Shown here piece after piece: positions 41,084 through 52,058 of a stretch of DNA of 64,000 nucleotides (its first letter is position 1; each line of letters opens with the position of its first letter). Origin of the DNA: Candidatus Sulfurimonas baltica (GTDB lineage Bacteria > Campylobacterota > Campylobacteria > Campylobacterales > Sulfurimonadaceae); NCBI RefSeq assembly GCF_015265455.1, contig NZ_CP054492.1:868001-932000 (forward strand), given 5' to 3'. Below the pieces are notes generated by a model, which saw only the letters and a list, made by a program, of their open reading frames with translations, made no database searches and was not told the origin of the DNA. The position numbers were made by a program, and so were the translations under genes.

Positions 41084-43918
41084 ATGAAAAAATTACTATT
41101 ATTAACAACTATCCTTCTCTCTTTTGCTTATTCTCATGAATGTAAATATACGCTTGAGATTAATTTGGATACAGAAAAAGGGCTGCTACAAGGTCGTTCA
41201 ATAATTGAAAGTGATCACCCTTCTATGAAACTGCTCGATACAAAAGCAAATATTACAGGCGTTAAAAATGCAAAACTAACTGTAAATGAAAATACCCCTT
41301 ACCTTATTAAAGAAGATGTTAATAGCCCCCTTGAGATGACGTTCTCACACAATTTTCAAGCAATAAATTCAGATGCAATTTTACTTGAATCTTGGTACCC
41401 TAAAATAGATGTTTTGTGTAAATATGAAACTATAATTTCTAATTCCAAAATCACAACTGTTGTTGAAGCAACAAAAGTAACTGATGATGGAACATCAAAA
41501 CACTTTATATTTGAAAACCCAATAGAGTCACTGCATTTAGTCGCATCTAAAAACTATGTAGTTAATTTTAAAACAACTAAAGATGCAATGGAACTCTCCA
41601 CCTACTTATATCCTAATGATGCAAATTTATCAAATACATATATTCAAAGAAGCGAAAAATATTTTAATCTTTATAAAAATATTTTTGGATTTATACCTTT
41701 TACAAAATTTTCAGTTGTGGAAACTCCTTTTCCTGCCGGATACTCTATGCCTACATATACTCTTATTGGAAAACAGATTATTAATAAAGATTTTGTTTTA
41801 GATAACTCATTGGGGCATGAGATAGCACACCAATGGTTCGGTGGCTATGTATATTCACCGGACCAGGGGAACTGGGTAGAGGGGATGACTACTTTTTATT
41901 CTGATTATCTTTACGCAAAACAAAATTCAAAAGCGGCTGAGTATAGAAAAGACATATTGATAAAGTATAACTCATTTGTAAATCAAAACAATGAAACAGC
42001 CCTCATTGAGTTTACTCATAAAAATAAAGAGAGTAAAAATGCTATTGGATACGGTAAAGCCACTTTCTTTTTTTACATGTTGGAGAAAAAAATAGGTGAA
42101 GATGCATTTAATAGAGGGGTTAAAAAACTACTTCAAATGTACACTTACAAAACGGCATCATATAAGAATCTAAGAGAGATATTTGAAGAGGCTTCAGGTG
42201 AAAAACTTTTAGATTTTTTTATAACTTGGGTTTACAACAAGGGAGCATTGGATGTTAAAATTGATAATATTAATTTGATGTTTTTAAAAGACAAATATAT
42301 CCTAGAATTTGATACAGTTGGTAGCATACAACTTGGAAACTTACCAATATCAGTCTGCTCAGATGATGAGTGTTTATATACTACAATCGATATTAGTAAA
42401 AAAAGTCAGCGTTTAGAGTTGGATATTGAACCAACAAAGATTGTTGTTGATGAATCATATGACATTTTTAGAAAGTTGGATGAGCGAGAAGTTCCTCCCG
42501 TTATTTCAAAAATTATTCAAGATAATACTCTTGTAGTGGTTGATAAAGACGATGAGAAAAAATTCTCTAAAATCATGTTCGCATATAAAAATTTTAAATA
42601 TGCCGATGAAATAACATTTGATGAGATAAAAAACAACAATATTTTAATATTTGGAGCTAAAAACTCATTTTTGAAGAAGTTTGCACTTAATTTTAAAATG
42701 GAAGGTGAAGGAAAAATCGAAGTGTTTAAAAATCCTTTAAACAGTTTGAATGTTATTGCAGTGTTTGATGTAGAACAAATTTCCAATACTTTTTTATACA
42801 AATTGAAACATCTTGGAAAATACTCAACAGTAGTTATTAAAGATGGAGTAATTGTTGAAAAAACAACTAAGGAGTCCTTAAACGGGATTACATACAAAAT
42901 TAATAGCGGCTCATTCGCACAAAAACCAAAGAGACAAAAGCTTGGTGATACTTTTAAAGAGATAGTTGATAACAAGGTTGTGTTTATTGGGGAGATGCAT
43001 ACTGAGTTCTCAAGTCATCTCAATCAACTAAAGATAATTAAGGCAATGTATAAAAATAATCCAAAACTCTCTATAGGTATGGAAATGTTTCAAAAGCCAT
43101 TTCAAAAATATCTAGATGCATTTATATCAGGAACAATAAGTGAAAAAGAGATGCTTAAAAATACTGAGTATTTTCAGAGATGGAAATATGACTATGAACT
43201 ATATAGACCAATTATGCTTTTTGCCAAAGAGAAGAATATACCAGTAATTGCACTTAATATAGATAGGGCTATTACAAAAGTAGTAGTAAGTGAGGGGTTG
43301 GATGCACTCAGTGATATTCAGCGTGTACAAGTGCCTAGTTCTATTGATTTTTCCAATGAAAAGTATAAGGAACAACTAAAATCAATATATTCAATGCATC
43401 AATCTAAAAGTTTTAAAAGTTTTGAGGAGTTTTACCATGCACAACTTTTGTGGGATGAGTCAATGGCTATGAATATTTCTGAATATATGAAAAAAAATCC
43501 AGATTATAATATGGCTGTATTAGCCGGAAATGGTCATGTTATGTATGGATATGGTATTCCAAGCAGGATGGAGAGACGAGGCATTGTAGATTATGCAATT
43601 ACTCTAAATATGACAAACTCTGAAGCAGGAATTGCAGATTATATACTATCTTCATCACCTGTTGGCACGCAAAAAGCAAAAAAACTTGGTGTGTATCTAG
43701 AGTCAAATGAAAAATTAAATGTAATTAATATTGTAGAGAACTCTTCTGCTGCTAAAGCTGGTATAAAAGTAGGTGATACAATTGTCTCTTTAAACGGTGT
43801 TTTGCTTAAAGATAAATATAGTCTTCAAGCAGAACTTGCATTTTTAGACGGCAGTGGAAATGTTGTTCTGCTTAGGGATTCAAAAGAAATTAATGTTAAA
43901 ATTGAGTTTTCTAATTAA
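41084..43918 (+). CDS. Exported M1 peptidase-like / ChaN-like / PDZ fusion protein
   Basis: A 944-residue exported protein with a signal peptide (KKLLLLTTILLSFAYS). Residues ~20-480 resemble M1 metallopeptidases: HEIAHQWFGG (zinc His245, His249), then Glu266 in NWVEGMT, giving a HExxH-x16-E spacing two shorter than usual. The M1 exopeptidase GAMEN motif is not evident (GYSMPTY is in its place). Residues ~620-860 resemble the ChaN/DUF399 family of haem or iron-linked proteins (FIGEMHTEFSSH, GMEMFQ, NGHVMYGYG). Residues ~865-944 form a PDZ domain (AAKAGIKVGDTIVSLNG). AAGGA precedes the ATG. I know of no standard protein with these three parts. Confidence 0.85.
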   Translation: MKKLLLLTTILLSFAYSHECKYTLEINLDTEKGLLQGRSIIESDHPSMKLLDTKANITGVKNAKLTVNENTPYLIKEDVNSPLEMTFSHNFQAINSDAILLESWYPKIDVLCKYETIISNSKITTVVEATKVTDDGTSKHFIFENPIESLHLVASKNYVVNFKTTKDAMELSTYLYPNDANLSNTYIQRSEKYFNLYKNIFGFIPFTKFSVVETPFPAGYSMPTYTLIGKQIINKDFVLDNSLGHEIAHQWFGGYVYSPDQGNWVEGMTTFYSDYLYAKQNSKAAEYRKDILIKYNSFVNQNNETALIEFTHKNKESKNAIGYGKATFFFYMLEKKIGEDAFNRGVKKLLQMYTYKTASYKNLREIFEEASGEKLLDFFITWVYNKGALDVKIDNINLMFLKDKYILEFDTVGSIQLGNLPISVCSDDECLYTTIDISKKSQRLELDIEPTKIVVDESYDIFRKLDEREVPPVISKIIQDNTLVVVDKDDEKKFSKIMFAYKNFKYADEITFDEIKNNNILIFGAKNSFLKKFALNFKMEGEGKIEVFKNPLNSLNVIAVFDVEQISNTFLYKLKHLGKYSTVVIKDGVIVEKTTKESLNGITYKINSGSFAQKPKRQKLGDTFKEIVDNKVVFIGEMHTEFSSHLNQLKIIKAMYKNNPKLSIGMEMFQKPFQKYLDAFISGTISEKEMLKNTEYFQRWKYDYELYRPIMLFAKEKNIPVIALNIDRAITKVVVSEGLDALSDIQRVQVPSSIDFSNEKYKEQLKSIYSMHQSKSFKSFEEFYHAQLLWDESMAMNISEYMKKNPDYNMAVLAGNGHVMYGYGIPSRMERRGIVDYAITLNMTNSEAGIADYILSSSPVGTQKAKKLGVYLESNEKLNVINIVENSSAAKAGIKVGDTIVSLNGVLLKDKYSLQAELAFLDGSGNVVLLRDSKEINVKIEFSN

Positions 43919-43971
43919 AATAATTGTTTTAATATAATATAATAAGTTTAATGATATTCAAGGGAGTTTTT

Positions 43972-44631
43972 ATGAGACAGAATGAGTTGTACAAATGCAA
44001 TAAGTGTGGAAATATCGTAGAGATACAAAAAGTGGGTGGCGGTGAGTTGCACTGCTGTGGACAAGCTATGGAGATGGTTACTAAAAGTTTAACTTCTGTT
44101 AATCTAATGAAAGCTTTTGCAGGTGAATCACAAGCTAGAAACAAATATGAATATTTTGCTAAAGTGGCGCAAAAAGAGGGTTTCAGAGATATTGCAGAAC
44201 ACTTTCAAAGAGCAGCTAATAATGAAAAACATCATGCAAAGATGGAACTTGCATTAAGCAATAGAATGACAAATAGTAGTGATAATAGTTTTGGAAATAC
44301 AAAAGAGAATCTTCAGTCTGCAATAGATGGTGAATCTTATGAAAATTTAATAATGTATCCTGAATTTGCACAGATTGCAAAGGATGAGGGGTTCACTGAA
44401 GCGGCAAAGCTCTTTTCAGGTATAGGGCAAGTTGAAGTTGAACATGAAAAGATGTTTAAAATGCTTTTACAGAGACTTGAAATTGATGCTGAATTTATTA
44501 GTGAAAATAAAGAAGAAGCTTGGATTTGTGAAGTTTGCGGTCACATTCATTATGGTAAAAAAGCGTTAAAAAATTGTCCTGTATGTGACCATCCGCAGGA
44601 GTATCAATCAAGATTAAATACTAAAAAATAG
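43972..44631 (+). CDS. Desulforubrerythrin (desulforedoxin-rubrerythrin-rubredoxin)
   Basis: About 219 residues with three parts: an N-terminal desulforedoxin-like FeS4 site (CNKCGN, then CCGQ), a four-helix diiron domain (ESQARNKYEYF, EKHHAKM, E-rich helices with EVEHEKMF), and a C-terminal rubredoxin (CEVCGH, CPVCDH). This matches the desulforubrerythrin described in Campylobacter jejuni, a peroxide-reducing enzyme of microaerophiles. ATG 43972 has AAGGGAG upstream; a further ATG at 43951 lies in front of that site. Confidence 0.93.
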   Translation: MRQNELYKCNKCGNIVEIQKVGGGELHCCGQAMEMVTKSLTSVNLMKAFAGESQARNKYEYFAKVAQKEGFRDIAEHFQRAANNEKHHAKMELALSNRMTNSSDNSFGNTKENLQSAIDGESYENLIMYPEFAQIAKDEGFTEAAKLFSGIGQVEVEHEKMFKMLLQRLEIDAEFISENKEEAWICEVCGHIHYGKKALKNCPVCDHPQEYQSRLNTKK

Positions 44632-44634
44632 CAC

Positions 44635-44669
44635 AGTAGTTTTGAAGTAAACTACTAATGGTTTACTTC
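44635..44669. terminator. Overlapping hairpins between convergent genes
   Basis: AGTAGTTT pairs with AAACTACT (8 bp) and, alternatively, GAAGTAAAC pairs with GTTTACTTC (9 bp). The two stems overlap and are mutually exclusive. They lie between convergent stops and likely end both transcripts. Confidence 0.5.
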
Positions 44670-44978
44670 TCTATTTAAAACTTTTTCAACCGAAGCAATC
44701 TTTGACTTTAGTCTATTTTGCTTACTATTTCTTATATCAAACTTCAAAGATGAATATACTCTGTCGCACTCTTTAAGTTGCTCATAGGCAAGTTCTATTA
44801 TAGCTAGTGCTTCTTTCAACGTATCTGTCTCAATAATGGTTCCCATTGGCGTAAGCTGATAGGAGACACCTGATCTGTCTATAACATCTATTACTTTGCT
44901 GACCTGTGCTGAAACTGAATCTCCATCTCGACAATTTTCCGATATAGGAAACATACTGAACTCTAGTAATATACTCAT
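44655..44978 (-). CDS. MTH1187/YqgV-family (thiamine-binding superfamily) protein
   Basis: A 107-residue small ferredoxin-fold protein of the UPF0045/MTH1187 type: LLEFSMFPI, SVSAQVSKVIDVIDRSGV, YQLTPMGTIIE and a conserved C-terminal helix. Family members may bind thiamine or similar small ligands. GAGAGG precedes the ATG. It lies downstream of the repeat lipoprotein gene in the same direction, 15 bases after it. Confidence 0.85.
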   Translation of the reverse strand: MSILLEFSMFPISENCRDGDSVSAQVSKVIDVIDRSGVSYQLTPMGTIIETDTLKEALAIIELAYEQLKECDRVYSSLKFDIRNSKQNRLKSKIASVEKVLNREVNH

Positions 44979-44993
44979 GCGTTGACCTCTCTT

Positions 44994-46406
44994 TTATTTA
45001 ATAAACTCTAGTGCTTTATAGGATTTTATTCCATTTATTTTGTGAAATTTATCTGAGCCCTCTACTTCATACACAATCGTAAATCCATAGTTAAATTTTT
45101 GTTCCAGTGAATTAATTATGAAAGATCTTCTAAATGGAAGATAAATATTTTTGGCTGTATTTGGAGCGATTAACATTGAGTCAAAAGAATATTCGTCCTC
45201 CCCATAGTGCTCTGTAAGAGAGAGTATTTTTATTAGTTTACTTGTAGCATTACTTATATTTAAATTTGAATCAATTGTTTGTAACTTTATATTTTTATCT
45301 GAGATTAAAAAAATTTTTGGTTTATTTTTAGAGTAGATTTGTTTAAAAACTGATAATTGAACTTCAGCATCAGGATTACTTATGTACTTTATTAGTCCGG
45401 AATCTTCTTTAACTGCAATAAATTGAACTTCTTTATCTGGATTTTCTATATATTCAATTAGTCCAGCTCTGTGTTTGACTGCAATTATTTGAGCCTCTAT
45501 ATCTGGAGTTTTTATGTATCGTATAAGTTCCGGATTTTGTTTTAAAGCAATAAGTTGAGTCTCTTTATCCGGTTTATCTATATGTTCAATAAGAGTAGCA
45601 TCTTGTCTAATAACAACAAGTTGAACCTCTTTATTTTGATCTTTGATATATTTAATAAGAGAAGGATTTTTTTTAACAGCAATAAGTTGAATTTGTATAT
45701 CCGGATTTTTTATGAATTCAATAAGATTAGGATTCTCATTTACAGCAATAAGTTGAACTTCTCTGTCTTGGTTTTCTATATATTCAATAAGGTTTGCATT
45801 TTGTTTTACAGCAATAAGCTGAATATCTTTGTCAGGATTTTTTATATACTCTATTAGTTTAGGATTTTGTTTAATGGCAATAAGCTGAATTTCCTTAATT
45901 GGATTTTTTATATACTTAATAAGCTCAAAATTTTGTTTAATTGCAATAAGTTGAACGTCTCTTTCAGGATTATTGATGTATATAATTGCGGATGGGTCTT
46001 GATTTACTGATATAAGTTGTATCTCTTTATCAGGGTTTTGTATATATCTAATAAGGTCAGTGTTGTGTTTTATGGCAATTAACTGAACCTCTTTATCTGG
46101 GTTTTTAATATATATAATCGTTGAAGGGTCTTCATTTACTGCAATTAATTGAACCTCTTTAGCCGGGTTTTCAATATATTTAATAAGTTCACTATTTTGT
46201 TTTACAGCAATGAGTTGAACTTCACTACATGGGTTCTCTATGCTTTCAATACATGCCGGATATTTATTGACGGCTGATATTTGCTCTTGTATTGAAGCAA
46301 GATTTAAATTGTTAATGCTCCCATTAGAAGGAGCAGATGCACAGCCGGCAAAAATGCTTCCAATAAAAAACACGATTATTAATTCAATTATAATAACTAT
46401 TTTCAT
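44994..46406 (-). CDS. Lipoprotein with about fourteen 22-residue repeats
   Basis: About 470 residues. The signal ends in the lipobox FAGC, so the protein is a lipoprotein. From about residue 45 to 355 it is built of around fourteen 22-residue units of the form IxNPDKEVQLIAVKQNPxLI plus one or two residues, resembling half-units of DUF4116. The repeat helices suggest a solenoid that could bind another protein at the envelope. The C-terminal ~110 residues are non-repetitive. ATG 46406 has AAAGG upstream; the ATG at 46451 adds a stretch without a good site. Confidence 0.8.
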   Translation of the reverse strand: MKIVIIIELIIVFFIGSIFAGCASAPSNGSINNLNLASIQEQISAVNKYPACIESIENPCSEVQLIAVKQNSELIKYIENPAKEVQLIAVNEDPSTIIYIKNPDKEVQLIAIKHNTDLIRYIQNPDKEIQLISVNQDPSAIIYINNPERDVQLIAIKQNFELIKYIKNPIKEIQLIAIKQNPKLIEYIKNPDKDIQLIAVKQNANLIEYIENQDREVQLIAVNENPNLIEFIKNPDIQIQLIAVKKNPSLIKYIKDQNKEVQLVVIRQDATLIEHIDKPDKETQLIALKQNPELIRYIKTPDIEAQIIAVKHRAGLIEYIENPDKEVQFIAVKEDSGLIKYISNPDAEVQLSVFKQIYSKNKPKIFLISDKNIKLQTIDSNLNISNATSKLIKILSLTEHYGEDEYSFDSMLIAPNTAKNIYLPFRRSFIINSLEQKFNYGFTIVYEVEGSDKFHKINGIKSYKALEFIK

Positions 46407-46507
46407 TTTATACCTTTTATTAATTATATACAAAGTTTGTAACATAATCAAAATAAGTATACTTTTTTTTATTGAAAACTACATCTCTATTAAAAATAAG
46501 CATATTA

Positions 46508-46533
46508 AGTTAATTGTCTAAATTACTAAATAG
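46508..46533 (+). promoter_or_regulatory. Conserved 26-nt element upstream of the ArsM-like gene (copy 1)
   Basis: AGTTAATTGTCTAAATT is followed by A and then CTAAATAG. It is identical, apart from that one base, to copy 2 at 48943-48968, upstream of the convergent MerT-rhodanese gene. It lies 45 bases before the ATG, just before a TATGAT box, which suits an operator. Confidence 0.6.
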
Positions 46534-46540
46534 ACTAAAT

Positions 46541-46546
46541 TATGAT
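46541..46546 (+). promoter_or_regulatory. TATGAT -10 of the ArsM-like gene
   Basis: TATGAT ends 31 bases before the ATG at 46578, eight bases after the shared 26-nt element; AAAGGA serves as ribosome binding site. Confidence 0.45.
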
Positions 46547-46577
46547 ATTATTTTATTCTTAAAAACAAAGGAATACT

Positions 46578-47966
46578 ATGGCTAACCTTGATTCAATTAT
46601 TGAACTATATTCAGATCTTGCAGACAACCCATTAAAAGATTTTGGTTGGAAAAAAGGATTCACCAATGCAAAATCTCATGGATACAGGGATGAGTGGTTT
46701 GAAATATTGCCCCAAGAGATATGGAAATACTGCGCAGCAGTTGGAAATCCATTTTTAAATGCAGAGATAAATAGCGGAGATGTTGTAGTTGATTTAGGCT
46801 GCGGTGCAGGTGTTGATTTGCTAGTAAGTGCACAGTTAGTAGGGGAAGATGGACGAGCAATAGGGGTTGATATCACACCAAAGATGGTTGAAAAAGCAAA
46901 AGAACATGCAGATATGGCTGGCTTCTTACATGTAGATGTGATAGAGAGTAGTTTTGACAATATACCATTAGAAGATGAGAGTGTGGATGTCGTGATTTCT
47001 AACGGGGCAATTAACTTGACAAGCTGTAAAGAGAGTGTTTTTGCTGAGATATTTCGTATATTAAAGCCAGATGGGAAACTCTTTTTTGCAGATATTATTG
47101 ATATATCAAAAGATGATAAATCATCTACATGTTGCTCGGCAGAAGCAGTAAAAGAAGAGAGTTGCTGTTCTGAGAGTGAAGTTCAGAGTTCTTGGGCAAA
47201 TTGTGTAGCTGGAACTTTAAAACAAGAGAAGCTTATTGATATTATGAATAACGCCGGTTTTACAGATATTGAGTGTACTGGCCTGACTGATTACACAACA
47301 TCAGATACTACAAGAGGTGCTACTTTTAGGGGTGTTAAAAATATATTAAAGCAGAGTAGACAAAAGCATTGGAATGATGTGTTTATAGAAAAAGATTATA
47401 CTCAGGTTTTGTGGCACCAAAACTCTCCAGTATTATCTTTAAAACTTATACAAAAGTATGGTATTGCAGATGAAGATGCAATTATAGATGTTGGTTGTGG
47501 AGCCTCTTTCTTGGTTGATAATCTTATTGAAAAAAATTACAAAAATATTACTCTTCTTGATATTGCCGAGTCCTCTTTAGATATTGTAAAAGAGAGACTT
47601 GGAGAGTTGGGCTCAGCCGTCAGATACAAATGTTGTGATGTGACCCAGTTTGAAGCGACCAACAGTTTTGCCCTTTGGCACGACAGGGCAGTTTTTCATT
47701 TCTTGCTAGATGCAAACGATAGAAAAAAATATCTTAAAAGTATGTATCAGGCATTAAAGTCCGGTGGCATAGCAGTTATAAGCACTTTTGCAATTGACGG
47801 ACCGCAGCAGTGTTGTGGATTGGATATTGTCCAGTATGATGCCCAAAAAATGAAAGAAGAGTTGATAGATGGGTTAGAACTTTTAGAGAGTTTTGAGATG
47901 CAGCACTTGACACCAAAAAACAGTTATCAAGCATACATCTGTTTTATTATTAAAGCTACTAAATAG
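46578..47966 (+). CDS. ArsM-like methyltransferase fused to a second class I methyltransferase
   Basis: A 462-residue protein. Residues ~1-255 resemble ArsM arsenite methyltransferases: VVDLGCGAGVDLLVSA, ISNGAINLTSCKE, RILKPDGKLFFADI, and a Cys-rich stretch with TCCSAE and SCCSES. Residues ~275-462 form another SAM-dependent methyltransferase (IIDVGCGASFLVDN, LWHDRAVFHFLL, KSGGIAVISTFA). ArsM proteins methylate As(III) for detoxification. Whether the second half acts on arsenic, selenium or another thiol-reactive compound is unknown. AAAGGA precedes the ATG. Confidence 0.85.
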   Translation: MANLDSIIELYSDLADNPLKDFGWKKGFTNAKSHGYRDEWFEILPQEIWKYCAAVGNPFLNAEINSGDVVVDLGCGAGVDLLVSAQLVGEDGRAIGVDITPKMVEKAKEHADMAGFLHVDVIESSFDNIPLEDESVDVVISNGAINLTSCKESVFAEIFRILKPDGKLFFADIIDISKDDKSSTCCSAEAVKEESCCSESEVQSSWANCVAGTLKQEKLIDIMNNAGFTDIECTGLTDYTTSDTTRGATFRGVKNILKQSRQKHWNDVFIEKDYTQVLWHQNSPVLSLKLIQKYGIADEDAIIDVGCGASFLVDNLIEKNYKNITLLDIAESSLDIVKERLGELGSAVRYKCCDVTQFEATNSFALWHDRAVFHFLLDANDRKKYLKSMYQALKSGGIAVISTFAIDGPQQCCGLDIVQYDAQKMKEELIDGLELLESFEMQHLTPKNSYQAYICFIIKATK

Positions 47967-47980
47967 TAGCTTTAGTTTTT
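47952..47980. terminator. Intrinsic terminator between convergent genes
   Basis: AAAGCTACT and AGTAGCTTT form a perfect 9-bp stem around AAAT, followed by AGTTTTTTT. It includes the stop of the ArsM-like gene. It faces the stop of the MerT-rhodanese gene and may serve both strands. Confidence 0.8.
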
Positions 47981-47985
47981 TTGGT

Positions 47986-48876
47986 CTATATCTCGTCCTC
48001 TGATTTAATTACAGGTTTCTCATTCTCAATAAAGGGGTAACCGGCTCTAGCCCAGCCCTTTACACCGGCAGTTAGGTTATATACATTTTTATAACCTAAG
48101 TGTTTCATAGCCTGAGCTGCTAATAAACTTCTCGCTCCCAAACGACTATATACTACGATTACAGTGTTTTTGTTATCAATTATTCCTAAAACTTTAAATT
48201 CTAAATCACATCTAGATATTGCATAACTCTCATCATCTGTATATATCTCTGCCTTAACTTTTTTTGATGCGCCTCTTACATCTAAAAGAGTTACATCTTC
48301 TCCATTGTCAAGCATTTTTTTCAACACAGCAGGGCTCATCTCCTCTACTTCAACTCTTGCGTCAGCAAGCATTTTGTCAAGATCTTTATTTCCAGTTCCC
48401 GTGCAGGCCTGCTGGTTGCAGGCAGTAGGATTTGCTTTTTCATTGCTCATATATTTTAAAACAGGTAGGCTTTTTATCGGTTTTACAACTTCATTTTCAA
48501 CGATTGTTTCAGTTGTGCAGCTATTACAATCTGCCTCAACATTGAAGTATTTATATCCCCATATAGGAAAAGAAAGCATAATAATCGAAAACAGAGTTAC
48601 TGTTGCTAAAAACTTTTTACTAGAGAAAAATCCAATCTTGCTTTCATCATCACAAGCACAATTAATATCATCTTTTTTTGTTTTTAGCTTATCCCACCAA
48701 GCATAAAGCAACACTAAAATAGTTAGACCAACTAAGTAATTATGATATGGTTGCATCCAAGAAAAAGATGAAGCCAAACTACTTGATCCTGCAAGTACTG
48801 CCAATACTGGAGTTACACAGCAAAGAGACGCTGCCACTGTTGCCACGATAGTAGCCATTATTTTTTTATTCGCCAT
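47986..48876 (-). CDS. MerT-like membrane domain fused to a rhodanese-like domain without catalytic Cys
   Basis: A 296-residue protein. The N-terminal ~125 residues have three membrane helices and the MerT-type pair SLCCVTPVLAVLAG, then cysteines in NCACDD and CNSC. The C-terminal ~120 residues form a rhodanese domain (VTLLDVRGASKKV, GYKNVYNLTAGVKGW). The active-site loop reads VYSRLGARS, with Ser244 where rhodaneses have Cys, so sulphur transfer is doubtful. It may carry a metal or metalloid, by homology to MerT. AGGA precedes the ATG. Confidence 0.85.
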   Translation of the reverse strand: MANKKIMATIVATVAASLCCVTPVLAVLAGSSSLASSFSWMQPYHNYLVGLTILVLLYAWWDKLKTKKDDINCACDDESKIGFFSSKKFLATVTLFSIIMLSFPIWGYKYFNVEADCNSCTTETIVENEVVKPIKSLPVLKYMSNEKANPTACNQQACTGTGNKDLDKMLADARVEVEEMSPAVLKKMLDNGEDVTLLDVRGASKKVKAEIYTDDESYAISRCDLEFKVLGIIDNKNTVIVVYSRLGARSLLAAQAMKHLGYKNVYNLTAGVKGWARAGYPFIENEKPVIKSEDEI

Positions 48877-48942
48877 CTAATATATTCCTGTCTTATAGTA
48901 TGAATTTTAAGGAGAAGAGTACAGTGATAACCCTTAATAAGC

Positions 48943-48968
48943 AGTTAATTGTCTAAATTGCTAAATAG
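48943..48968 (+). promoter_or_regulatory. Conserved 26-nt element upstream of the MerT-rhodanese gene (copy 2)
   Basis: AGTTAATTGTCTAAATT is followed by G and then CTAAATAG; 25 of 26 bases match copy 1 at 46508-46533. It stands 67 bases before the minus-strand start codon at 48876, with the same orientation on the plus strand as copy 1, so opposite relative to its gene. A symmetric operator or a shared regulator is likely. Confidence 0.6.
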
Positions 48969-49032
48969 CTTTAATTGATATTAAACGAATGATAGGAATT
49001 GATTAGTGCTTTACACATTTGTAAATGGGTAT

Positions 49033-49467
49033 TTAATTTAAATACCCATACATATTTGTTCGTTCAAATTTTTTAGCAAGCATTGGGGCAGTCGCACCTC
49101 TTGCATTTGCAATTGATTTGTCTGCACCTTTTTCAACAAGAAGTTTGCAAAGAGATGGTACATCATCCATAATAGACTCCATTAGAGGTGTCCAGCCAAC
49201 GCCATCTATCTTGTTGATATCTGCACCTTTTTCTAAAAGCAGCTCAACCATAGGAGTTCTCTCTCTCCTGATAGTTACATGTAGAAGTGTCCATCCATAT
49301 TTATTTTGGATATTTATATCTTCTAGTTCATTAACAATAGCGCCAAAAAGTTCTAAGTCATTTTCGTAAACTACCTTCTCAAGTAGTTCAAAAATATCTT
49401 CAAATTTTTCATTGTAGTTTTTTACTTTATTTTGTATATTATCTGATAATGTATTTATATTTTGCAT
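49033..49467 (-). CDS. Ankyrin-repeat protein
   Basis: A 144-residue protein with about three ankyrin repeats (GWTLLHVTIRRERTPMVELL, GADINKIDGVGWTPLM, and CKLLVEKGADKSIAN). It has no signal peptide. AAGGGG precedes the ATG. Twenty-six bases separate it from the FabL-like gene, so it is likely the last gene of that operon. A protein-binding role is likely; the partner is unknown. Confidence 0.88.
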   Translation of the reverse strand: MQNINTLSDNIQNKVKNYNEKFEDIFELLEKVVYENDLELFGAIVNELEDINIQNKYGWTLLHVTIRRERTPMVELLLEKGADINKIDGVGWTPLMESIMDDVPSLCKLLVEKGADKSIANARGATAPMLAKKFERTNMYGYLN

Positions 49468-49493
49468 CCATGACCCCTTATAAGTTTAACTAT

Positions 49494-50276
49494 TTATTGA
49501 AAAGAAGTTCCACCATCAATTACTATAGTCTGACCAGTCAACCAAGAAGATTCACTACCACATAAAAATAGACAAGCTCCAGTTAAATCTGTAGCTTCAC
49601 CCATACGGCTAAGAGGAGAACGTTTAACGACTTCATCTTTAACCACTTCGTAGTTAGGAAACGCTTTTAGTGCATCAGTATCAATCGGGCCACCGCTTAC
49701 AGCGTTTACTCTGATGTTTTTTTCTCCAAGTTCAGCAGCTGCATAACGAACCATAGCTTCAACTGCAGCTTTGTTTGTACCGTGACCTGCATAGTTTGGA
49801 GTGTAAACAAGGTTACCGGTAGAACTCATACTTATAATACTTCCACCGCCAATTTTCTCCATTCTTTTCGCAGCTTCTTGAGCACCTACAACAAAAGCAT
49901 CAACGGTAGCTGTATATATATTGTTTAAACCTTTTGGTTTAAGTCTCATAAATGGACCAAATCCACCAACTACGGCACGACCAGAGATAATAGCATTTGA
50001 TATAAAAAAGTCTAGTCTGTCAAAGTCTTCATCAAAAAGTTTATATACATCTTGGTAAGTTAAAGGTTCTAAAATATCTAATTTATAAGCTCTGCACTTA
50101 ACACCATAGTTTGCTTCTATGTCTGCGACTATATCATTAGCACTATCTGCACTTGAGGCATATGTAAATGCTACATTACACCCTTGCTTAGCAAAAGCAT
50201 AAACGATTGCTTTACCTATTCCACGAGTTCCACCACTAATAAATAAAGTTTTTCCTTGAATGCTATTTTGTGTCAA
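49494..50276 (-). CDS. SDR-family enoyl-ACP reductase-like protein (FabL-like)
   Basis: About 260 residues. The Rossmann motif GGTRGIGKAI, the catalytic set with Ser (SMSSTG), Tyr (NYAGHGTNKAA), and the phrase NAVSGGPIDTDALKAFPN recall Bacillus FabL enoyl-ACP reductase. I prefer a TTG start at 50276, which follows AAAGGA at a spacing of seven, over the ATG at 50297, which lies inside dapA without a site. Position after dapA matches the Helicobacter order. If FabL-like, it works in fatty acid elongation. Confidence 0.8.
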   Translation of the reverse strand: MTQNSIQGKTLFISGGTRGIGKAIVYAFAKQGCNVAFTYASSADSANDIVADIEANYGVKCRAYKLDILEPLTYQDVYKLFDEDFDRLDFFISNAIISGRAVVGGFGPFMRLKPKGLNNIYTATVDAFVVGAQEAAKRMEKIGGGSIISMSSTGNLVYTPNYAGHGTNKAAVEAMVRYAAAELGEKNIRVNAVSGGPIDTDALKAFPNYEVVKDEVVKRSPLSRMGEATDLTGACLFLCGSESSWLTGQTIVIDGGTSFQ

Positions 50277-50277
50277 T

Positions 50278-51171
50278 TTATAGTCCTTTGATTTCATAGT
50301 TTTTCATAATAGTTTCTAGTTTTTTCATATTTTCAACGCTTGGAGCAACTAGAGGAAGTCTGTACTCTAAAGTGTTTATAAGTCCAGCTATATACATAGC
50401 GGCTTTTATCATAACAGGATTGGACTCAATAAAGAGAACTTTATTAATAGGAAATAGCAAGTCATTTATAGCTTTTGAACCTGCAAAGTCACCGCTTAAT
50501 GCTTTTGCAACAAGTTGGCTCTTTAAATCAGGTAGCAAGTTTGAAGTAACAGAAGTTATTCCTGCTCCACCATTAGCTAAGATTGGGTAATCGATTGAAT
50601 CATCACCAGAAAATACTTTAAGCTCAGGTCTGCGAGAGAGAAGCTCTATTGTTCTCTCTAAGCTTCCAGTAGCTTCTTTGATTCCATAAATATTTTTTAC
50701 ATCGTCAAACAGTCTTATTACAGTATCTGCTTCGATGTCAACCACTGTACGGCCAGGAACGTTGTAAAGCATAAACGGAAGGTCACTTACAGACTCTGCA
50801 ATAGCTTTATAGTGCTGGTATAGACCCTCTTGAGAAGGTTTGTTATAGTAAGGAGCAACTGAAAATATAGCATCCACACCACATTTTTGTGCAGTTATTG
50901 CAGCTTTAATAGCTTCTGCAGTTGAGTTACTACCTGCGCCCGCAAGAACTTTTGTGCCAGTTCCTTTACACACCTCTACTGCTATCTCCATACATCTTTT
51001 ATCTTCGTCGTATGTAAGTGTCGCACTCTCGCCAGTTGTTCCAACTGGACAAACAGCGTTTATTCCGTTGTTTATTTGTCTTTTTATCAGGTCAGCATAA
51101 GACTGCTCATCTAATTTTCCATTTTTAAATGGAGTAATCAGTGCAGTGGTTGAACCAGTTACGATATTCAT
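50278..51171 (-). CDS. dapA: 4-hydroxy-tetrahydrodipicolinate synthase
   Basis: About 297 residues, a TIM-barrel lyase of lysine/diaminopimelate synthesis. Signatures: VCPVGTTGESATLT with the family Thr pair, APYYNKPSQEGLYQHY, the Tyr in LYNVPGRT and the Schiff-base Lys in IYGIKEATG. ATG 51171 has AAGG nine bases upstream; a TTG lies one codon before. The FabL-like gene follows directly. Confidence 0.96.
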   Translation of the reverse strand: MNIVTGSTTALITPFKNGKLDEQSYADLIKRQINNGINAVCPVGTTGESATLTYDEDKRCMEIAVEVCKGTGTKVLAGAGSNSTAEAIKAAITAQKCGVDAIFSVAPYYNKPSQEGLYQHYKAIAESVSDLPFMLYNVPGRTVVDIEADTVIRLFDDVKNIYGIKEATGSLERTIELLSRRPELKVFSGDDSIDYPILANGGAGITSVTSNLLPDLKSQLVAKALSGDFAGSKAINDLLFPINKVLFIESNPVMIKAAMYIAGLINTLEYRLPLVAPSVENMKKLETIMKNYEIKGL

Positions 51172-51247
51172 CAATATAGCCTTCTTTAATTAATACGCAA
51201 TTATATCGAAAAAGATTTAATATCAAGAAGTTCAACAGCTTATTCGA

Positions 51248-51253
51248 TATAAT
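51248..51253 (+). promoter_or_regulatory. TATAAT at leaderless spacing from the NYN-like gene
   Basis: TATAAT ends seven bases before the ATG at 51261, so transcription would start at or near the start codon, and no ribosome binding site is present. A leaderless mRNA is likely if this is the promoter. Confidence 0.4.
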
Positions 51254-51260
51254 AATTTAT

Positions 51261-51998
51261 ATGAAAAAAATTATTATAAATAAAAAATTTTATGGCAATA
51301 TTGATCTTCCTAAAACAAGAAACGCATATAAGCATTTTGTATCAATAGTACGGGCTTTTTCTTCTAATGAAGAGATAACTATAGAAACTATGTACCAAAA
51401 TCACAAACTAAAGAGTTTTAACAGCTACCAAAGAGGAGGATGTGCTGATGAACTTCTTGAATTAGAAATGTATATAAAACTATCATCGCTTTTAAGTTTT
51501 AGCGCTGAATCAGCAGTTAAACTTAAAAATAAAATAGAATTTATAAATGATAATGCTTATGTGAATTTAAATATTTCAAACAATTTGATACTTTTTAATA
51601 AAAAAGTTCCTGCAAAAGCAAAGAAGGCTTATGTTTTTTGGGATATAGAAAACTTTTCAAATATTTCTCCTATGTTCTCTCATATTATTGAGCCTTTTGA
51701 AATAGAAGATGAAAATATATATGTATCTTGCAATCCAGATTCATTGTATCTGTTTAAGGCTGAGTGGGAAGCGGATTTATATGATTTTGGTAAAACTCTA
51801 AACTCCTTTAATTTTACAAAGTGTGACCATGGTAAAAATGTTGCAGACGGAATTTTACTTAAAAACTTTGAAGACTTAAAACCAGTTGATGCAGATATTT
51901 ATGTAGTTACCTATGATATAGAGCTAAAAGAGAGGTTTAGGGAGTCTTGTAGCAAGAGCAATAATTTATATGTTCTACAAAGAAAGATTTTAAATTAA
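51261..51998 (+). CDS. NYN/PIN-like domain protein
   Basis: A 245-residue protein. The C-terminal half carries AYVFWDIENFS, a typical NYN start with its acidic residues, CDHGKNVADGILLKNF and IYVVTYDIELKERF, which fit the acidic positions of an RNase-like NYN domain. The N-terminal ~115 residues are basic with KLSSLLSF helices and no motif I know. It is read alone, divergent from dapA. RNA cleavage is plausible, not shown. Confidence 0.6.
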   Translation: MKKIIINKKFYGNIDLPKTRNAYKHFVSIVRAFSSNEEITIETMYQNHKLKSFNSYQRGGCADELLELEMYIKLSSLLSFSAESAVKLKNKIEFINDNAYVNLNISNNLILFNKKVPAKAKKAYVFWDIENFSNISPMFSHIIEPFEIEDENIYVSCNPDSLYLFKAEWEADLYDFGKTLNSFNFTKCDHGKNVADGILLKNFEDLKPVDADIYVVTYDIELKERFRESCSKSNNLYVLQRKILN

Positions 51999-52058
51999 AT
52001 TTAGAGATCGCACAAGTTTATGTGCGCCTCGTTTAAATAATTTTTTTTATTCAGGTTG

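Follow-up and report, generated by a model that had tools for sequence, protein, structure and literature searches.

Two near-identical 26-bp sequences precede two convergent genes in a stretch of 64,000 nucleotides of Candidatus Sulfurimonas baltica (NZ_CP054492.1, positions 868,001 to 932,000; hereafter the window, with positions counted from its first letter), and they raise the question of which regulator reads them and what it responds to. A sequence-only reading of the window had proposed a regulon site for an arsenic- or mercury-type sensor encoded elsewhere. The best explanation of the whole, which we consider very probable, is that both 26-mers are operators of one ArsR/SmtB repressor whose gene lies about 630 kb away.

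The element can be written as AGTTAATTGTCTAAATT[A/G]CTAAATAG. Its two copies, read on the forward strand, lie at 46508-46533 (AGTTAATTGTCTAAATTACTAAATAG) and 48943-48968 (AGTTAATTGTCTAAATTGCTAAATAG); as had been described, they are identical at 25 of 26 bases and stand before both gene starts, with gaps to the start codon of 44 bases for the ArsM-like gene (46578..47966, plus strand) and 66 bases for the gene of a MerT-rhodanese fusion (47986..48876, minus strand). Both copies have the same chromosomal orientation and hence face opposite ways relative to their respective genes: as predicted operators (O26), copy 1 is oriented as it is before arsR in related genomes, while copy 2 runs against the direction of the MerT-rhodanese gene, as it does in the divergent arsR/MerT region of relatives. 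A 23-base core with up to 3 mismatches matched the window at these two places only (0.00 matches in 100 shuffles), and a 24-base form, again with up to 3 mismatches, found the same two copies alone in the whole genome (G000; 2,737,757 bases) and nothing in the reversed control, so that the element is not scattered through the genome in many unrelated copies. A reading of the 26-mer as an RNA element was dropped, as positions 43000-52000 gave no Rfam match at the gathering score.

The candidate regulator was found with the ArsR protein of a relative (G009) as query, which had a single match in G000 (81% identical; G000:C1:1545467-1545832, minus strand), followed by a dsbD gene. It scores 26.1 bits against HTH_5 (PF01022; cut-off 22), compared with 33.9 for the orthologue in G011, and against the NCBIfam model HTH_metalloreg (cut-off 55) it reaches 51.4 bits, below the cut-off, with the G011 orthologue above it at 55.8. 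The promoter of this arsR gene carries a degenerate element upstream of TATAAT. When the genome was scanned with the half-site pattern TTAATTGTC-N6-RCTAAATA, the window sites matched with 0 mismatches, no place matched with 1, and two places matched with 2, one in the promoter of the arsR orthologue and the other within an open reading frame (ORF) that we take to be RND (resistance-nodulation-division)-transporter-like; the latter was regarded as a chance match. With up to 3 mismatches the pattern occurred at 59 places (55 of them at 3) vs. 32 in the reversed control, and therefore only matches at 0-2 mismatches were used. With the regulator encoded about 630 kb off and its promoter among the two best half-site matches after the window pair, the arrangement resembles a split regulon acted on in trans. 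The arsR-dsbD pair of G000 stands directly after a two-component system comprising a response regulator and a histidine kinase (L090:5626-10190).

The connection between element and regulator is seen most directly in related genomes. The closest relative found (G032, the two proteins being 87% and 91% identical) has both 26-mer copies at the same places. In G009 and G026 an operon of related genes points away from a gene of the ArsR family (122 aa), and the intergenic region between them contains the element with two and one changes, respectively. The arsR promoter of G018 contains the exact 26-mer, and in all three genomes the element has arsR on one side and a divergent rhodanese or MerT gene on the other (in G018 the start of the MerT gene was placed by eye). 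A profile built from 13 regulators was then used to collect loci, and the best 80 of 125 candidate stretches yielded 79, the titles of which name Sulfurimonas, Sulfurovum, Arcobacter-type organisms, Sulfuricurvum, Sulfurospirillum, Campylobacterota identified at family to phylum level, and one Epsilonproteobacteria. One locus (L139), where the match begins at residue 14, was excluded from the promoter and cysteine counts, leaving 78.

A dyad, ATTTAG-N8-CTAAAT, recurs in the upstream regions of these arsR genes, exactly in 31/78, with one mismatch in 30/78 and with two in 4/78; at 0-1 mismatch it is present in 61 of the 78 promoters vs. 0.38 per shuffled set, and no shuffled set had an exact copy. 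In these 79 loci, together with L064 and L066, 31 sites match the 26-mer itself with up to 3 mismatches (30 are distinct, as L066 is the same contig as L121), and 12 of the 31 are identical to one or other window copy. It commonly stands between a divergent arsR and its target gene, and the targets opposite arsR in related Campylobacterota are MerT-rhodanese, rhodanese, DsrE, DsbD or methyltransferase genes. At 27 of the 31 sites a dyad begins 55-58 bp from the 26-mer (20 exact, 5 with one mismatch and 2 with two), the commonest order being arsR, 26-mer, dyad, targets. The dyad alone was also tried as a regulon finder in G000 and rejected, as it matched 36 places with up to 2 mismatches vs. 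14 in the control, none of them exactly.

The position of the element relative to promoters agrees with what a repressor site would require. Of 35 sites, counting those of the window and of G032, 24 have a -10 sequence that begins 12-14 bases past the 26-mer, and on the other side of the 26-mer a -10 begins at 22 bases in 13/35 sites and at 2 bases in 11/35; with these spacings the 26-mer would overlap the arsR-side -35 and, in many loci, the divergent -35 as well. In the window, the predicted -10 of the ArsM-like gene (TATTAT, 46546..46551, plus strand) starts 13 bases past O26, which is the modal spacing, and its -35 region would therefore fall within O26; the scan returned TATGAT at offset 8, a 5-of-6 match that ties with TATTAT. 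Before the MerT-rhodanese gene the -10 scan found no match of at least 4/6, and TACTCT (48916..48921, minus strand), close to the position of a better TATCAT in G032, is proposed by comparison as a weak candidate. Besides the window pair, seven of the 35 sites lie away from arsR (the second sites of L106, L119 and L124, those of L111 and L128, and two of G032), so this use is not limited to the window. In L119 (4429-4510) and L124 (2058-2139) the second site is a full operator unit, made of a 26-mer with one T for C and an exact dyad 56 bp apart, the dyad side of which faces a small c-type-cytochrome-like gene (CKKCH in L124), and this suggests a further target of the regulator.

The element was also restricted to genomes that encode the regulator. 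Among 298 sampled genomes of the order, the 26-mer (searched in a 25-base form with up to 2 mismatches) was present in 5 and the ArsR at E 1e-20 or better in 24, and all five element-bearing genomes were among the 24 (hypergeometric 2e-6). Four of the six element sites in this sample end 39-51 bases before an arsR start, and the other two are those of the window. A tie between the element and ArsM itself was considered and dropped: G031 has an ArsM-like gene (59%) without any ArsR match, and its 14-kb locus contains nothing under 8 mismatches to the 26-mer. These results support the proposal of a regulon site, common to both genes, for an ArsR/SmtB-family sensor encoded outside the window, given the likely regulator gene about 630 kb away and the presence of the element or the dyad in most promoters of the family.

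Which signal the regulator might sense was approached through its cysteines. All 78 regulators have exactly three, at positions 33, 50 and 102 (33, 48 and 100 in two shorter ones); in a smaller set Cys33 and Cys50 were invariant (13/13), and Cys102 was replaced by Ser in G032 and by Tyr in G010. In an AlphaFold model of the L105 orthologue (mean predicted local distance difference test score, pLDDT, 78.9), Cys33 and Cys50 fall on short strands located between helix 2 and helix 3, and Cys102 is part of the last helix; the two strands may be read as an extra hairpin, the region in which the model is least certain (pLDDT 55 over residues 31-40 and 52 over 41-50). The nearest solved folds are SrnR, CadC and ArsR, an As(III)-responsive ArsR included, with BigR and SqrR lower down. 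In a sequence alignment with Lmo1102, which we take to be CadC, Cys50 corresponds to the first Cys of the CVC site, and the position of the second is occupied by Thr or Ser. The cysteine layout is thus neither a CVC site nor a SqrR pair: CVC-type As/Cd sensors (ArsR, CadC) have their CxC at the start of helix 3, where Cys50 alone is present here, and SqrR has one cysteine in helix 2 and the other in the last helix. Sulfane sulfur is sensed via two cysteines by SoxR, sHdrR, SqrR and BigR, the pair being numbered Cys50 and Cys116 in SoxR (PMC10451225, PMC12423496). Like the present regulator, these sensors belong to the ArsR family and have sulfur-related targets and conserved cysteines, one of them in the last helix; in the present regulator, however, no Cys occurs in the helix-2 segment (17-27), the invariant pair is located on the predicted hairpin, and Cys102 varies. 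The BigR model gave 19.5 bits for the G011 orthologue (cut-off 155) and was not listed for the G000 regulator.

From the computed features, i.e. the site, its restriction to regulator-bearing genomes in the sample, its location in the promoters of the regulators, the regulator gene itself and the conserved cysteines, we infer binding, repression, release and an inducer along the following lines. A repressor dimer would occupy each 26-mer, over the promoter -35, and keep the ArsM-like and MerT-rhodanese genes off, and the repressor would also shut its own gene via the weaker site. A thiol-reactive inducer would then bind or bridge Cys33 and Cys50, upon which the repressor would release the DNA.

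The products of the window genes qualify what their family names imply. The ArsM-like protein (462 aa) consists of an ArsM-like N half, which can be aligned with solved ArsM structures, and a second methyltransferase as its C half; CC pairs occur in a linker of the ArsM-like half. Unlike ArsM it carries this fused second domain, its score against the NCBIfam ArsM model (171) is below the cut-off of 263, and the Cys of the 'SNCV' motif is Gly in 18/18 aligned ArsM-like sequences, in which Cys52 and Cys209 are invariant; the ArsM cysteines are presumably As(III) binders. In the second protein (296 aa), a MerT-like membrane domain that scores just below the cut-off of Pfam MerT (31.6 vs. 32.9) and below that of MerTP (139.8 vs. 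180) is fused to a rhodanese domain whose catalytic Cys is replaced by Ser (YSRLGARS). The vicinal CC pair of the first MerT membrane helix is invariant in 15/15 sequences. In the 79 loci, the rhodanese Cys is kept in 2/14 MerT-fused ORFs (L110 and L114; Ser, Gly, Asp or Thr in the other 12) and, by pattern, in 41/46 stand-alone rhodanese ORFs (1 with Ser, 4 unread by the pattern). The window proteins also match ArsM-like and MerT-like selenoprotein models of NCBIfam with scores under the cut-offs, and their ORFs were read with Cys, not selenocysteine; since several of the NCBIfam matches are selenoprotein families, the ArsM-like protein may be a Cys relative of them. With Gly for the SNCV Cys and Ser for the rhodanese Cys, it is doubtful whether the window pair carries out either arsenic methylation or sulfur transfer, and the names ArsM-like and MerT-like alone are a poor warrant for arsenic or mercury resistance where key cysteines are absent.

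Neighbouring genes were counted within the fetched flanks of the 79 loci, some of which are short. The commonest partners of the regulator were rhodanese and DsrE sulfur-transfer genes, with rhodanese or DsrE in 62 loci (rhodanese 54, DsrE1 36) and DsbD in 13, vs. MerT-like or ArsM-like genes in 28 (MerT-like 17, ArsM-like N halves 24). Among the 40 largest neighbour clusters, those that we take to be of metal type were an ArsP/SO_0444-kind permease (L113, L154, L157), a second ArsR of the CVC type (L113, L128, L157), a protein resembling copper ATPases (L125, L131, L132) and a protein of the cation-efflux kind (L113, L150, L152). In our view a sulfur-linked role of the window pair is no less likely than metal(loid) resistance, and we lean slightly, with about half confidence, towards sulfane sulfur or polysulfide over a soft metal(loid) as the inducer.

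The strongest competing explanation keeps the same ArsR operator and assigns it a soft metal(loid) inducer (As, Sb, Hg, Se or Te), the pair serving detoxification by MerT transport and ArsM-like methylation. We give it an appreciable chance, although one somewhat below even. The ArsM-like and MerT-like families with the invariant MerT CC pair, the alignment of Cys50 with the first CVC Cys, the CadC and As(III)-responsive ArsR folds among the nearest, and the presumed metal-type neighbours (three loci per kind) all speak for it. Against it stand the missing second CVC Cys, the Gly in the SNCV motif, the greater frequency of sulfurtransferase partners, and the fact that no arsenate or mercuric reductase was recognised in the 40 largest neighbour clusters, where no family search was run. 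The arsenic or mercury component of the sequence-only reading was accordingly not established, considering the 62/79 loci with rhodanese or DsrE vs. 28/79 with MerT or ArsM and the absence of the SNCV Cys in 18/18 sequences.

A second explanation leaves out the ArsR as the reader of the element: the 26-mer could be the site of another regulator, for instance a response regulator acting on direct CTAAAT repeats, with the ArsR gene as a mere frequent neighbour or target. The 26-mer can indeed be read as such repeats, it is better conserved than the plain dyad, and one of its halves is asymmetrical. We consider this unlikely, as the 274 sampled genomes that lack this ArsR yielded no 26-mer, a second group of regulators that lacks the 26-mer keeps the dyad just before the arsR -10, and the variants of L109 and L120 grade into the dyad.

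Several observations nonetheless weigh against operators of the distant ArsR repressor. Both window copies lack the second dyad present in relatives, the arsR site of G000 differs from the 26-mer at 5/25 compared positions, and G000 contains no exact ATTTAGC-N6-GCTAAAT. The arsR promoter of G032 has no 26-mer site within 5 mismatches (AATTTTC-N6-GCTAAAT was seen there by eye), and G000 and G032 are not independent cases, the split arrangement being probably shared by descent. Thirteen of the 78 regulator promoters are without a dyad at up to 2 mismatches (L104, L106, L109, L111, L125, L127, L128, L131, L132, L145, L146, L158 and L166); L104 and L106 have an exact 26-mer, and L109 a 26-mer with 3 mismatches further up. 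Of the 24 sampled genomes that encode the regulator, 19 have no 26-mer. The promoter on the non-arsR side is less certain given the additional -10 peak at offset 2 (11/35 sites). AATTGTC, the left half of the 26-mer, does not make a good dyad with the right half, so a further protein might contribute to its conservation.

That the copies are a dispersed repeat, a mobile-element remnant or the product of chance, as two near-identical short sequences 2.4 kb apart might suggest, is highly improbable and was rejected on the genome scan and the window shuffles, the position of the 26-mer also being conserved in regulator promoters across genera.

Returning to the ArsR repressor acting from a distance, the arrangement in G000 and G032 can be described as a split state, in which the 26-mer before the MerT-rhodanese gene is accompanied by neither arsR nor dyad and the ArsM-like gene stands behind an arsR-type promoter with its own 26-mer. 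We infer that the split is the derived state, and likewise the order of events. The broader picture, which we offer tentatively and with a chance only just short of even, is that of an unnamed Campylobacterota ArsR group with a hairpin Cys33/Cys50 pair and a two-operator unit (dyad and 26-mer 55-58 bp apart) that would run a sulfur-transfer/methylation regulon detoxifying sulfane sulfur or a soft element; here this regulon would be split and controlled in trans via two 26-mers, and its ArsM-like enzyme and catalytically dead rhodanese would have been recruited from metal(loid) handling.

The kind of regulator is known, and as far as searched, the operator, the cysteine layout and the split form are new. 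The winged-helix fold, the HTH_5 domain and a dyad over the promoters of the regulator and of divergent targets are shared with the ArsR/SmtB autorepressors ArsR, CadC, SmtB and CzrA, which differ in that the present family has an insert between helix 2 and helix 3 that is preceded by Cys33 and followed by Cys50, lacks a CVC pair, and in the window has targets far from the regulator gene. The Tso selenoprotein operon, named in PMC13188914, is similar in combining an ArsR-type TsoR with rhodanese/DsbD-like names (NCBIfam), but scores were far under the cut-offs (TsoR, NF045707, 26.9 and 33.1 bits vs. 115; TsoB 25.7 vs. 805). No description of the regulator, the operator or the dyad was found by title and abstract in the open literature, subscription papers being mostly outside the scope of this search. 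In Sulfurovum indicum two rhodanese-like genes are reported to be up about 2.8-fold on elemental sulfur (PMC10045233); these may or may not belong to the present group. Little regulation of this sort was found in the literature for chemosynthetic vent and sediment Campylobacterota, for which a testable regulator, operator and target set are now at hand; in addition, the fixed operator pair together with the split form provides a clean case for how a regulon comes apart.

As for the remaining features of the window, the convergent layout of the two genes was confirmed, and of the shared terminator proposed between them a terminator-like hairpin with a T-run was detected on the plus strand only, at the end of the ArsM-like gene (47949..47976). 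Upstream of the first 26-mer, positions 43951-44631 encode a rubrerythrin fused to an N-terminal Desulfoferrodoxin domain, and 44994-46403 a protein with many DUF4116-type repeats and a lipoprotein-like start. Beyond the second 26-mer, an AT-rich hairpin (ATGGGTATTTAATTTAAATACCCAT, 49025-49049) marks the end of an ankyrin-repeat gene (49033-49467).

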